DNA of 64,000 nucleotides from Paramyrothecium sp. XJ0827 (taxonomy: Eukaryota > Ascomycota > Sordariomycetes > Hypocreales > Stachybotryaceae). The stretch lies in contig JAJFPB010000006.1 in assembly GCA_020881915.1 (NCBI GenBank), positions 620,001-684,000 on the forward strand, given 5' to 3'. Shown piece by piece: positions 55,860 to 64,000 of this stretch. Position numbers and translations under genes: made by a program. A model generated the notes under the pieces. That model saw nothing but the letters and a program-made list of their open reading frames with translations, had not been told where the DNA came from and searched no databases. Each line of letters opens with the position of its first letter. Within the stretch, counting starts at the first letter, position 1.

Positions 55860-58672
55860 TTATTCCCAATCCTCATTAAATTGAGCCCCAGAGCTGTCGA
55901 TGGTCTGCTTTATTTGATCTTTATTCGTAAGTAGCGCTGGGAGAACTTGATTCTCGTTACCAATTGCGGTCCCAATCCTCGGAAAGGAGTTTTGGGAATG
56001 CTTTGGTAACAAGCAGAGCTTGTTATCACCACGAACTCTAACACTAGGCCTCATAGGCGATAGCGTGGCATGTTTTTCACTGTGACTTGATTTCCTCTGC
56101 TGTGGTGTAAGTTGTGTCGACAGGTTCGACACGAAAGGCCCCCGTGTTGCCGTTTTGGGAGTCATCTTATTGTTTTCAGAACCAAGGCACGGCGAATCGT
56201 GTACTTCCTTCTATAATCTGGTCAGTGGAGAGGTTGACTATGGACCTAGAGAACTCACATTCGAAACTCGTCTAGTTTCTTGCGAGTATCGTTTCGGATT
56301 GGGTTTTGTTTGAGTACTTTTCAAGGCGGGCTGTTCGTTCCTCGTGCAGCCCTGGTAGATCTGATAGAGCTCCTCACGAAGCTTATCACAATCCCATCGA
56401 AGGTCTGAACTAGGCGCTAGCATGGCGGTCAGAGTAAGGTCCAAGAGTTTATGCAATTGCTCGCTGCACCCATCCGTTTGGTGAAGTTTCTGTATCCACT
56501 GGAGTGTTGTCAGCAGCATAAAAAATCAAGGAATTCCGAGTCTTACCCTCTCTACTGATGGCTTTACGATAGCCTTTTCTTTCCCATCTTTACCTTCTGA
56601 CCGACCCGTGAGGCTGAAAAACTTGTCTTCTGCCGCATCTGCATGCTCAGTCTCATCGCTTACGCGCTCGTTCGAGAATGCCATAACACCCTGATCGAAT
56701 CCCAACAGCAGCCAGGATACGAATTCAAGGATAACACACCCCAACGACCAAACGTCGTATCGTTGAGTGATCTGCTCCTTCAGTTGTAGGTCGGGCGGAC
56801 GATAAGTGCCTGAGAAGCCTTGAACTTGTTCCTGTTGGACTCTTGACCTAGAGTGAGCCGTATTGAATTGTGTCAGGCCAAAGTCAGATATGACGAGGTG
56901 GTCAGGCCGTCCATGGTAATCACGAAACCATAGAATATTTTCTGGTTTAATGTCGCCGTGTCGCCCCCATTCCTTTTCACCGATTGCCGTTGTGAGCACC
57001 ATCAAAGGGGCATTGCTGGGATCCAAGGTTTTCTTTTCGCGTGTGGTCAGGTGGTGGATCTTGCGAAGACCACGAGTAATTCCCCAAACTTGTTCAAAGA
57101 ACCAGCACATCACTTGAGGATCGGCGGGGTCGACCGTCACTCCATTCCAAAACTCCTTGAGGTTTCCGTCAGCCCACGGGAACACGAGGAAGAAGTCTCT
57201 TCCATGCTTGAAGGTCAACTGGAGAGAGATAAAATGGTTTGGTGCAGCGTCCTTTTGCTGAATGCCCAATTTTTCAAACACACGAACTTCTCGCATGTAG
57301 TCCTCGTCATTCGGCACATGTAGCTTCTTTACGGCGAATGCTCGATGCGTTTTCTATAGCATGTCAGATATTTCTGGAGATTTTTCCATTGTGCGTATAG
57401 TGTAAGTACCGAAATGCTCTCACCGTAGATGTAGTGCGCGTGGTGAATGCCTGCTTTTCGTACCGTACCATAGCCGCCACTGGCGTGTGATTCGTAGTAG
57501 CAAAATGGAACTGTTGAGTCGTGTTCTAGGTTGTAAAAGGATACCTGTCCCACAGGGAGTTTCCCAGGGAGTTTAAAAAATGGCGCGTGGATTACGTGCT
57601 GGTTCAAGGAAAAATCATGCGCGACCTTGAGATCCCACGACGCAAAGCGTCCCGACTTGGAGGGGTCGCGTGTTGAGAACTTCACTACTTTCTCCGGATT
57701 CTTGTAATTGAGGACTAGTGGAAGAGAAGAGTCGTCAATCCCGGCTTCGACTAAGTCTGGGAATATGTCAATCTTTTCGATCCGAACGAGAATAGCAAAA
57801 ATTCGACGTCGTTTCGCAGGCGATGCGGACTTGTTGAGGTCCAAACCAGCCGACCCAAAAACATCCTTCTCAAGCTTCGCCGCCATCTCTTGATTGAATT
57901 GATCGTTCAGTAATGTCCGCACAACTTCGCGTGACAAAATTTGCCGGAGTCGGTCCAAGGGAAGGTATTCTTTATCATCAAACGCCGAGGTTTCGAGCGA
58001 CGCGCAAATGTCATTGCAGACAGACCTGAGATTGATGACATTATCCGTTGCAGGGGCTCCAATCTGTTTGAGATGATTCGGCGCATGGTTCGAAAGCCAT
58101 TCAGAGCTTAGTTTCTCTGACATGTTTGTTCCAACAGAGTTGTGCAAGTCCTTGTCGTCGCTCGCAACTGCCGAGGCTGGTGCCTCTGTAGAATCATTCA
58201 ATTTGTTTCTGCACAAATCTTGTTCCCATTCCATGTATGCCTGCGTGCCCCTATCTTCAACTTTGTCGATGCTGTGGAAGCTCAAGTCCGACCGACCTGA
58301 TTCAGATGGTGTGGCCGGCGACTGGACCTTCAACGCCCAATCGCTTCCGAAACGGGTGTCGTTCTGGCTATTGGATTCATAATTTCCGGGCCGGTGATCC
58401 ACAGACTCATCTACCTTGAAGTAAGGAACTTTGGTTGAGTTTGGTGACGAAAACTCATTGTCTCGAAATGAAGGGCCGGTTATGCCTTGATGTCTCTGCT
58501 TCCCCGCTGCCTGTAGCTCTTGGATCTCCTCGCCAATCGTGTTGCCCGTAGACCCACGGATGTCTAATAAGTCGTCTCTGTTGTCACCGAATGCTTTGGA
58601 GTCATGTGTTGGTGCTGACTGCGCTCGGGCGAGATGCATCCTCCTTTCGGTCATGTTTTGGCCAATGCCCAT
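55860..58672 (-). CDS. fungal protein kinase with long N-terminal region
   Basis: Exons (minus) 58672-57410, 57353-56547, 56498-56259 and 56210-55860 encode 886 residues. Residues 1 to about 210 are disordered. About 220-420 form a conserved region of this fungal kinase family (EYLPLDRLRQIL..., FFKLPGKL...). The kinase domain has a glycine loop GGYGTV, the ATP lysine K430 (FAVKKL), RHGDIKPENILWF with D555 (HGD replaces HRD), and ISDFGLTQF with D578. YRPPDL stands where APE is usual. A basic, low-complexity C-terminal tail of about 150 residues follows. It should be an active Ser/Thr kinase. It is divergent to a related kinase at 61 kb; relatives often lie beside or inside HET and NLR-type genes, suggesting a part in fungal self/non-self response. 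Confidence 0.88.
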
Positions 58673-59454
58673 GTGCTTGGACCAGCCACACTGGAAGCCC
58701 TGGACAGCTCAGCAGTGTTATTGTTGTTTCGGTTGATTGATCGATTTTTGGAGCCACGTGGAGCTCAAGAAGCCCAACACTAATGTGACAGAGACGTGTG
58801 AGAGTGGCAATGGTCAAGACCGCGTTGATTTCGGGTTTTTAAGAGGCAACAACATTGTATCTGCACCCATCGTTATACGCCATTCGTTTTGTACAACCCC
58901 CCTTGATCACCTGGTCAAATGGTAAAATTGTCCAATGGGGTGTGCGCCTGCTATCAGCTCAGCCATCGGAAAAAGCAATGTGTCCCAGAAACGCCTAGTC
59001 AGCGCCCCATTCAAGGTCGCAGTCTAGGCCTGTGCGTGCTATTGGAAGCCTTCCACGCCCACAAAATCAATCACCCAGAATCCTCGGAACTTTGTTGTTG
59101 GGGGCCTCAGCTGACTCTCGTATTGGGTCTTGGTCATGCGACGAAGATCAAGCGGAGCTGAGTGGCTTTCCTACAATCAGGCTGCTACGAGAAGAGGGCA
59201 AGCGTAGTACAGGCCGAAGGACTTCTTCCATTTGAGGCTGCGCAACATGAGTTCCGGCTCAGGGACCGGGCGGCAAATACTTCGGTAAGAACCCCAGACC
59301 GGTAATACCGCACAGGGGCGGAGAGTGGTCGCCTTGGTAGTAGGTGGCGGTGTCAGATTTTCTTCGCCTCATAGCCTGATACGTTGCATGTTGCACTTTC
59401 CACATTCAAGTTTGCTACAATTTTCTTCCGTTCACTTATATACAAGATCCCGCA
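58673..59454. other. intergenic, upstream of both kinase genes
   Basis: About 780 bp without a supported gene. A TATA motif (cttatataca, 59436-59445) sits just before the small ORF at 59455. Confidence 0.4.
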
Positions 59455-61113: not shown

Positions 61114-64000
61114 ATGGTGTCTCCGGCCGAAAATAACACCCCACTGGCGCTAGGGAATTCCCTGGTTCCACAAAGTCCTGCCGCAACGGAACCCGACAAT
61201 TTTGAGCGCAAGCTTTGTGGTAAAATACTTCAAAATTTATGCGAAGATGTGGACGGAAAAGAATTCTTGCCCGCAGACAAGATTACTCGTCTCGCCTCCG
61301 AAACGCTCATTACCTCGGTACTGCAGCACAATTCAGGAGACGTGCCATTGGCTGACCTAGTAAACTATGTGCTTCACAAACCTGCAATCAAAGTCTTTCT
61401 CACCCTTGCATCCTGCTGTCTTACAAGCGAGATGGAAAAGTTTTATCATTATGGTCTGACCGATGAGCACTTGCCAATGGAGAAGCATGACAATGACCCG
61501 AGCAGAGGCAGACGGCAGTGGACTCCAACGTACTCTTGGCATGGTAAAGAATGCAGTGACTTCAATTTGCATCAATGGAAATTCTTGGCACCCGTTTTCA
61601 CCAAAGACCAGTTTGTCTATACTTTGCATAAGAAATGCCCTCTGCCAATTATTCACCGGGAGAGTAGCCGCCAAGATGGACTCACTGGGTCGGTTGCCGA
61701 AGTTGAGGTCCACGAAGCCCACCAAAAAGTTCTTGAAAAGGTAGGTTCATTTTTATCAACGTGTGTTTCAACTGAACTGATTCTCTATCTCAGAAAAAAA
61801 ACAAAAAGGTTCGAATTGCCCTGAAAATGATTCGACCTCAAATGGCCAGCTATTTCGAACAAGAAGAGAAGACGCTCGAAGTCATTCGCAACATAGATCA
61901 TCCGCATCTCATTATGCCCATTGCCTCTTATAGGTTCAAGCCAGATGATAATGGTTGCTTCCTGTTCCCATGGGCAGAGGGCGGTAACCTTAGACAGTTT
62001 TGGGCCAGGGAAACAATTCGGCCTTTAAAGGATCCCAAGATGTTGGAGTGGTTGCTCAAGCAAATGTCTGGCTTATGCGGCGGTCTCAGCATTCTGCACG
62101 GAAAAGAACATCGCCATGGAGATATTAAGCCCGAAAACATCCTTTTGTTCCAAGAAGATGGCGGAAGACGCACCCTTCAAATCGCCGACGTGGGACTCGC
62201 CAAGCATCACGACATGCCTACACAGCAACGGGTAGACCTTATGCAAAAGACCAACACAATGACCGGTACCACGCGATACGTGTCTCCAGAATTTGTCCAC
62301 GCAGATCAAATTCCGCGCGTCCTTGACACATGGGCTCTTGGTTGTGTTTACGTGGAGTTCATCATCTGGATACTCTACGGACAGACGACTTTGCGCGACT
62401 TCATCAAACAAGGGTTCGATCATTTCTGGGAGAAAAAGGGCGTCGAGTTCTTAGTGCACCCAATCGTCAAGATTTGGTTGAAGCGGTGCACTGAAGACCT
62501 CAGCGGGTCAGAAACGGCACTAGCGAGCGTTTTAGAGTTGGTCAAGTCGAGCATGTTGGAGCCAAACTCCAAGATTCGAGGCGAAAGCACTGCAGTACAT
62601 GTAAAGTTGGAGGCGATATATGAGAGAGCCACAAAGGACGCTGATTACCTTCGCGGCGATCAAGTCTGGGCAAAGATCAGTACTAAGAAGCCCCCATCTG
62701 AGAAGCCGTCGGGGACGACTCTCAAAATCCCTGGCACTGCCGGAAGTCCCCGCTCATTGCCTCGTCAAGCACCAGATGAGATGCATAATGCCGATGATGG
62801 ACCAGATATTGCGATTCGTATCGATTCGGCTGAGGATGCGAATTCCGCCCAGCTGCCAACCATGCCAACGACAATTAGAGTCGCTCAAGAAGTGAGTAAT
62901 CAAGCTTTTATGAAGACTGGTGCTGACCAAGATAGTAGTATGTGAGTGAGGATGCCACAACTTGAATTCTAGAGCTAACACGAGGTTTATTTGAAGAATG
63001 TAAGCATGATAACATGACTTACTTGGTTTATACTAACAGTATAAATAGGTAGTAAGTTGAAACATTGCTCATCTGTAGGATACTGCTAACAGAAATAGCC
63101 TGTGAGTGAAGATCCAGTTCTTACTTTTCTATGTCCTCGCTGACCGAAACAGCAACTCCGAAGATTGAATGATATCTGGTACTCTCAATCCGACAATGAA
63201 TTTGCTCACAACCTGTTCTCCCGTGAGGACTGGAATTTCACTCGTCCCGCTTTGCCTACCTCAAGGCTCTGCGAGAAATGCAATGGTTTTGACATCACTC
63301 AGCCAGGCTTCAAAACCACTGAATTGTTGGACGATATTATTGCAAGATCCCAAATTTGCGAGCTTTGCGAGCTTTTTGCTCAAGCTGCGCAAGAGCTTGG
63401 CCTGGCCCTTGGCAGTGTATTTACGTGTCAGCGTAGTGGTCCCGTGCTACAGATACATACAGGCGCCGACAGTGCTGAAACAATTCTTTCCATTTATGCA
63501 GATCCAGGTACGATACCCATTAGACTTGAGAAATGTTGTTCTAATTGGACGTCCAGAACACCGCGTCCCTGCTCAGTGTGCTCAAGCTGGCTCTCCGCTA
63601 CTACCAGCTCCCGGTAGTCCTGCTCAATTTGCCATTATGAAAGAATGGTTGCGATTATGTCGAGACACTCATAATCATGGACAAACCAGCCAAGTCTCTG
63701 AGAATGGTAGCCAAGAGCACACCACAATGGAGCTTCCGACTCGTGTGGTGGATGTTGGAAGTTCAAACGATCCTAATTTGCGGCTCATCAACAGCAAGGC
63801 TATGAAGTCAGAAGAATATTTTGCTCTTAGTCATTGCTGGGGACGTGGAACTATGTTCAGAGCATTGAAGTGCAATTTTGAGACTCTTGAGAAAAACATT
63901 GACGTCGGCTCTCTTCCTCAAAACTTCCTCGACGCTGTCACTGTGACCAGAGCTTTCGGTGCAAGATATCTTTGGATCGACTCTCTTTGCATCATTCAAG
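61114..64000 (+). CDS. protein kinase-HET domain fusion protein, 3' end outside window
   Basis: Predicted exons 61114-61740, 61794-62891, 62939-62941, 62997-62999, 63049-63051, 63099-63101, 63153-63507 and 63557->64000. Residues about 40-200 match the conserved N-terminal region of the kinase at 56-58 kb (EFLPADKITRLASETLI...). The kinase domain has K220 (IALKMI), HRHGDIKPENILLF with D319, and IADVGLAK (DVG for DFG, D341). A Pro/Ser linker follows. Four 3-nt exons (Tyr, Asn, Val, Pro codons), all phase 0, lead into a HET protein N terminus with two CxxC pairs (LCEKC, CELC), then the HET domain: FALSHCWGRG and YLWIDSLCIIQ at the window end. The HET part has no ATG of its own, which supports the fusion; otherwise the kinase ends at TGA 62945. 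Start may be upstream. Likely a cell-death or non-self signalling protein. Confidence 0.65.

Follow-up and report, generated by a model that had tools for sequence, protein, structure and literature searches.

Predicted arrays of single-codon exons at the kinase-HET junction of five paralogous genes in Paramyrothecium sp. XJ0827

The window considered here is the whole stretch of 64,000 nucleotides (nt) from Paramyrothecium sp. XJ0827 that occupies C12:620001-684000 in a genome of 51.8 Mb and 15 contigs. Near its end, the frame of a protein kinase is followed by the frame of a HET domain, and the linker between them (62892-63152; 261 nt) can be read as five consecutive short introns separated by four exons of one codon each. 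The segments of this gene are as follows (the paralogues C8 and C15 gene b are described further below).

61114..61740, plus strand: first coding exon as far as read, an open frame with a phase-0 join to the next exon
61741..61793, plus strand: ordinary intron within the kinase part, whose removal keeps the frame
61794..62891, plus strand: kinase exon (PF00069, E 1.2e-22), ending ...TTIRVAQE in phase 0
62892..62938, plus strand: intron 1, 47 nt, acceptor TAGTAG
62939..62941, plus strand: micro-exon TAT (Tyr); TAT also in the C8 gene and C15 gene b
62942..62996, plus strand: intron 2, 55 nt
62997..62999, plus strand: micro-exon AAT (Asn); AAT also in the C8 gene
63000..63048, plus strand: intron 3, 49 nt
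63049..63051, plus strand: micro-exon GTA (Val)
63052..63098, plus strand: intron 4, 47 nt
63099..63101, plus strand: micro-exon CCT (Pro)
63102..63152, plus strand: intron 5, 51 nt
63153..63507, plus strand: HET head exon, QLRRLNDIWYSQSDNEFA..., an open frame without Met
63508..63556, plus strand: ordinary intron within the HET part
63557..64000, plus strand: HET-domain exon, which continues to 64349 and is followed by an intron and the last exon up to the stop at 65135; from exon start to stop, this is L002 3557-5135

An earlier reading, made from the letters alone (the sequence-only reading), had proposed this array, and each of its elements was found at the coordinates first given: the five introns with their lengths, the donors (in order, GTGAGT, GTGAGT, GTAAGC, GTAAGT, and GTGAGT), the branch motifs, and the exons TAT, AAT, GTA, and CCT. 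Both edges of the array, i.e., the end of the kinase exon at 62891 and the start of the HET exon at 63153, are in phase 0. Without splicing, the kinase frame runs into a TGA at 62945. The absence of an ATG from the HET exon was likewise confirmed, no Met being present among the first 160 codons translated of the HET frame. Intron 1 ends in a tandem acceptor, TAGTAG (window 62932-62938), whose upstream site, three bases earlier at 62935, would if used place an in-frame TAG before the Tyr codon TAT.

The kinase exon matches PF00069 with 81 bits (curated cut-off, 31.7), and the HET part matches PF06985 with 113 bits (cut-off, 22.5; C12:683817-684251); by this match above the curated cut-off, the latter is a predicted HET-domain protein region. 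The HET head exon is 45% identical to the C8 gene over the matching stretch. Once two more introns are removed downstream of the array, the frame remains open up to a stop at window-equivalent 65135, beyond the window (L002). At the other end, ATG 61114 is one candidate start, and the N-terminal exon 61114..61740 matches no Pfam family (E 0.01). The two long proteins that match the kinase region best come from Cosmosporella and Fusarium nematophilum and are 62% identical to it. In positions 62100-62215, the kinase has RHGDIKPEN and ADVG in place of the usual HRD and DFG; in plants, non-RD kinases are linked to immunity.

A genome search with the kinase and the HET head gave 43 matches, with all 71 candidates scored. 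Checking the 24 larger loci for motifs yielded five genes in which the kinase motif and the HET motif share a strand, one gene being represented twice (L036 and L044). Further kinase-HET genes may exist, as only the best 150 of 293 candidates were scored in the HET search. All five genes found have an array at the junction, with 4, 4, 7, 5, and 6 micro-exons; in the junction peptides below, hyphens stand for introns.

Window gene: E-Y-N-V-P-QLRRLNDIW, 4 micro-exons
C8 gene: Q-Y-N-R-V-QRQKLDDKIW, 4 micro-exons
C15 gene a (paralogue 3): R-T-D-Y-A-L-P-P-LKDW, 7 micro-exons
C15 gene b: E-Y-K-F-P-I-LGDQW, 5 micro-exons
C9 gene: I-G-Y-S-N-W-NL-LDDRW, 6 micro-exons; left edge unsure, a further intron being possible before the array

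Together, the five arrays comprise 31 introns (30 GT-AG and 1 GC-AG) and 26 micro-exons, 25 of them of 3 nt and one, AATTTG in the C9 gene, of 6 nt. In C15 gene b, the micro-exon CCC is 3 nt long only via the second of two acceptors and 9 nt otherwise; the GC-AG intron (GCAAGA) is the third array intron of the same gene (L044). The donor GTRAGT is present in 14/31 array introns and the branch motif CTRAY, located 4-45 nt before the intron end, in 29/31. The median array intron is 59 nt long, and an array taken as a single intron would measure 261-552 nt in the five genes. Among the comparisons listed, the kinase parts of these genes are 29-46% identical and the HET heads 25-47%, the window and C8 genes forming the closest pair; no HET-head match is listed between genes 1 and 4 or between genes 4 and 5. 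The first two micro-exon codons are common to the window and C8 genes, and a Tyr codon flanked by introns on both sides occurs in all five paralogues. The chance of one Tyr in each of the five linker peptides is about 0.05 by a hand calculation and was not used as a test.

Two side observations concern the same families. A related kinase gene lies at window 57329-58708 and at C12:676700-677215, both on the minus strand, where the kinase motif only was found (L037), with no HET motif nearby; by eye, its N-terminal part looks like that of the kinase-HET gene. The HET repertoire of the genome is large, with at least 150 HET-domain places among the best 150 of 293 candidates.

The array is beyond chance. 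In dinucleotide shuffles (4000 per linker, the first 6 and last 20 bases being fixed and a looser intron pattern applied), an end-to-end chain with 3-nt exons only was obtained in 0/4000 cases for each of the five linkers. Since the 6-nt exon keeps the unshuffled C9 linker from forming a strict 3-nt chain, this linker was also tested with both lengths, 3 and 6 nt, and again gave 0/4000. With the same two exon lengths, three introns were reached in 2/4000 shuffles of the window linker and in 1/4000 of the C8 linker. When exons of 1-12 nt were allowed, the window linker gave three introns in 34/4000 shuffles, four in 1/4000, and five in none; the C8 linker gave three or four introns in 6/4000, none reaching the observed number, and the other three linkers gave 0/4000.

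Scans of natural sequence agree. Under a strict pattern, one strand of the window holds 33 intron-like stretches and the other 35; the six best plus-strand chains listed are all inside the array, and on the minus strand there is no chain of more than one intron. Across the 260,250 bases scanned (the window and the retrieved loci, a kinase-gene-rich set with some overlap), the five kinase-HET linkers were the only places where three or more introns follow one another with exons of exactly 3 nt, and no such runs with 4- or 5-nt exons were found. Exons of 1-12 nt add two three-intron runs, at window 40277-40041 (minus strand) and at L050 6748-6994. In the former, the exons between the intron-like stretches measure 12 and 7 nt.

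Independent evidence on the peptide comes from two metagenome frames, P0044 and P0050 (longest contigs 15,416 and 8,360 nt), in which the kinase continues into the HET head uninterrupted. The nearest of the five genes to P0044 is C15 gene a, with 42.5% across the fused query and a place in the same clade. The micro-exons of gene a spell T-D-Y-A-L-P-P before LKDW, and P0044 has R-D-Y-D-L-P-P before LKDW, i.e., 5/7 residues are identical. The probability of at least 5/7 identities by chance is 4e-6 with linker-drawn codons and 1.3e-5 with the 635 trinucleotides found between AG and GT, and the micro-exons of gene a were parsed before the P0044 sequence was examined. Judged by this comparison, the predicted parse of gene a is right, and its micro-exon codons belong to the predicted protein. 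Conservation of the peptide relative to an uninterrupted gene favours inclusion of these codons and argues that inclusion would be the main product in paralogue 3. The pattern Tyr-x-hydrophobic-Pro is seen in YNVP, YALP, and YKFP, as well as in YDLP of P0044, and is missing from the C8 (YNRV) and C9 (YSNW) genes. For the window gene's own micro-exon peptide, support of this kind is indirect.

The best explanation, to which we assign a probability of about 0.74, is that an old array of codon-sized exons is spliced into the linker peptide of one kinase-HET fusion gene. The linker between the two domains would be encoded by consecutive single-codon exons, reading Tyr-Asn-Val-Pro in the window gene. 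Each short intron, with its own donor, branch site, and acceptor, would be removed as a unit; fungal introns of such size are recognised as units. Removal would be stepwise, probably one intron after another, since neighbouring splice sites are 3 nt apart and the factors bound to them should clash. The main messenger RNA would then contain all micro-exons (...TTIRVAQE-YNVP-QLRRLNDIW...). All micro-exons are multiples of three, and hence the frame is kept when any of them is skipped; retention of a single array intron leads to a stop in 30/31 cases. Such exons may have been kept at multiples of three because skipping costs one residue and leaves the frame safe, while retention would nearly always truncate the protein after the kinase. 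The exact codon size is what would be expected if skipping errors are common and tolerated and retention is not. The array itself would be old in the gene family and variable in length between paralogues.

Several facts weigh against this explanation. The peptide-level proof covers paralogue 3, not the window gene. The lengths of 23/31 array introns are not divisible by three, so that most retention stops come from the frameshift and are weak evidence; seven of the eight array introns divisible by three also give a stop on retention. Four annotated relatives (P0112, P0113, P0116, and P0122) are modelled, by eye, without linker residues, as removal of one long intron would give. Finally, three Clonostachys proteins (P0119-P0121) have no Tyr at the junction.

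These proteins come from a search with region 262-560 of the fused protein, which listed 57 proteins. Both Pfam domains are present in 21 of them (P0108-P0128), in the order kinase-HET in 20; P0128, from Colletotrichum siamense, has them the other way round, HET first, and is possibly a mis-joined gene model. Linker residues number three in P0109 (YVG) and six in P0108 (FCYRKN). In P0110, P0111, P0114, P0115, and P0118, the junction stretches are longer and resemble translated intron; the first four of these contain LLTV, which could be encoded by CTGCTAACAGTN, a branch-site-like sequence. The annotated Xylariales proteins P0124, P0125, and P0126 read DEYNRRSKPFNDNW, DEYNRRSKPFNDSW, and DEYSERHLNRLRDVW at the junction, and the junctions of P0123 and P0127 were left unclassified. 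P0117, a 1,346-residue frame on a 4,370-nt contig, has a contiguous linker with Tyr (SSHDGLYGTVSALRKLNDVW, SSHDG-LYGTVS-ALRKLND). It is probably a transcript, as further introns are present in all five genes studied here and as P0018, its neighbour in the tree, has a kinase exon that ends at a donor-like V-S.

Kinase-exon homologues (n=107) were also considered at the other side of the junction. Of the frames examined, 34 have [EDQ]V[SGR] somewhere in their 45 C-terminal residues; about 20 of these are, by eye, true counterparts of intron 1 read into the donor, the rest matching elsewhere. P0022 and P0024 end in DEYNVRAS and DEYNV, the Tyr and Asn being inside the kinase exon there. With the fused protein's region 520-820 as query, 0/2373 candidates passed; this search lacked sensitivity, since fusion proteins were found in that database with region 262-560. 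Viral contigs scanned with the kinase exon gave no match.

The rival explanation that survives best, albeit an unlikely one, is combinatorial skipping, in which a recognition or cell-death protein would be diversified through linkers of 0-4 residues in as many as 16 forms (128 for the seven-exon paralogue), as described for the Tuber NACHT-ankyrin genes. It draws on the fact that every skipped form is in frame, on the variation in micro-exon number from 4 to 7 between paralogues, and on the alternative splicing of codon-sized micro-exons that is reported for Tuber in the cited passages of PMC3689799, PMC4986451, and PMC10197012, but the conservation of the paralogue 3 peptide relative to its uninterrupted relative favours inclusion. 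The sequence-only reading had suggested that skipping may make the linker variable in length, which would be compatible with the frame.

We consider it very improbable that 62892-63152 is one long intron, with the inner sites being relics or decoys and no linker residue in the protein. Such an intron would keep the junction in frame, 261 nt being divisible by three, and would agree with the four relatives modelled without linker residues. However, the inner signals are complete in all five genes and are not produced by shuffles, the required lengths of 261-552 nt contrast with the array intron median of 59 nt, and the conserved DY-LPP of paralogue 3 would be deleted.

Hardly credible is a pair of genes, i.e., a kinase ending at the TGA at 62945 and a separate downstream HET transcript with introns in its leader. 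The stop in the unspliced frame and the annotation of some relatives as kinase only (e.g., P0007 and P0012) are in line with it; the phase-0 continuity in five genes, the absence of Met from the 160 codons that open the HET frame of the window gene, the uninterrupted passage from kinase into HET in P0044 and P0050, and the joined kinase-HET order in 20 public proteins are not. Both separate genes and one long intron had been raised as alternatives in the sequence-only reading, and both are disfavoured by the four paralogue arrays and by the uninterrupted relative that encodes the paralogue 3 peptide. A chance run of splice-like motifs, common as these are singly in the window, can be dismissed given the shuffles of five linkers and the absence of any other 3-nt-exon run in about 260 kb.

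As to the origin of the array, the Tyr codon flanked by introns in all five paralogues suggests that the array predates the divergence of these genes. A kinase tree was built from 54 rows, with P0019, P0026, and P0122 left out beforehand. In it, the uninterrupted P0044 and P0050 group with the array-bearing C15 gene a and C9 gene (100/100); the branch uniting C9, P0044, and P0050 has support of 95/83, C9 being a long branch. Given this placement, arrays may have had several origins, or P0044 and P0050 may have lost their introns in one block. In the cited part of PMC8831610, block intron loss is inferred for the 1-nt exon of plant APC11.

Serial intron gain, proposed in the sequence-only reading, is possible. 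Mean local scores of intron cores are 9.7 for adjacent introns (n=26), 10.3 for non-adjacent introns of the same gene (n=58), and 10.2 for introns of different genes (n=381), and in the comparison of the window and C8 intron cores, matching positions are no more alike than others. As neighbouring introns are no more alike than those of other genes, recent duplication of an intron with its codon is not supported. An origin from introners or tandem duplication was rejected for want of excess similarity between array introns, with the proviso that old copies could have diverged beyond recognition. Repeats around the array are short and weak ones only. The suggestion of stwintron-like splicing did not hold, and this candidate was also rejected: by eye, all 31 introns carry a donor and an acceptor of their own, neither of them interrupted, and their signals are whole.

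A broader idea, which we regard as speculative and rather improbable, is that single-codon exon arrays have arisen more than once in fungal recognition or cell-death genes as a splicing device; the kinase-HET array would then, by regulated inclusion, tune or diversify the hinge that links the kinase to the death domain one codon at a time, and intron retention would yield a kinase-only form. Arrays of minimal exons at a fixed junction provide a test case for how the spliceosome handles successive 3-nt exons and for the reason behind the exact codon size, and, with the relatives that have uninterrupted linkers, it can be worked out whether introns at the successive codon boundaries were gained or lost. 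The finding also suggests that public kinase-HET protein models can often not be relied on in the region between the two domains, a point of relevance to studies of non-self recognition in fungi.

The closest known system is the NACHT-ankyrin (nank) family of Tuber melanosporum, for which 3-bp alternatively spliced micro-exons are described (Iotti et al., 2012, as cited in PMC3689799, PMC4986451, and PMC10197012). The sequence-only reading had called the run far outside normal fungal gene structure; its proposal of one gene in which single-codon exons join the kinase to the HET domain is supported, the run exceeding chance, but the codon-sized micro-exons already reported for Tuber require the wider claim to be toned down. 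No micro-exons in kinase-HET genes were found in the open-licence literature searched. Other systems are more distant, as far as the cited passages describe them. The Fusarium CYP621A gene (PMC12940212; 2026) also has an ultra-small exon, one that annotation missed and that is correctly spliced, backed by reads and an intronless relative; unlike the arrays, it is one single exon of 1 nt. The micro-exon genes of Schistosoma mansoni (PMC10526429) share runs of short exons, mostly multiples of three, but differ in exon size (mostly 15 bp, with a minimum of 6 bp or 3), long introns, and secreted products. Fungal stwintrons (PMC6616335) are likewise closely packed introns removed successively, but in them one intron interrupts a splice signal of another, whereas the array signals are whole. 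Xlr2 of Trichoderma virens (PMC11121469) is also a micro-exon case from a filamentous fungus, and no array is mentioned in the passage cited.

As in the nank genes, so far as they are described in the passages cited, several consecutive one-codon exons occur here in an expanded fungal family of the non-self-recognition type. For the Tuber genes, the micro-exons are reported to be alternatively spliced. The present gene is not of the NACHT-ankyrin type: its Pfam domains are kinase and HET instead, and no NACHT or ankyrin matches are listed for the pieces of the window gene searched against Pfam. The arrays differ from those of Tuber in belonging to a kinase-HET family, in having 4-7 micro-exons rather than tens, in their fixed position at a two-domain junction, and in the conserved peptide of one paralogue. 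What is new relative to Tuber is thus a known type of exon in another gene family, at a fixed place, recurrent across paralogues, and with one conserved peptide.
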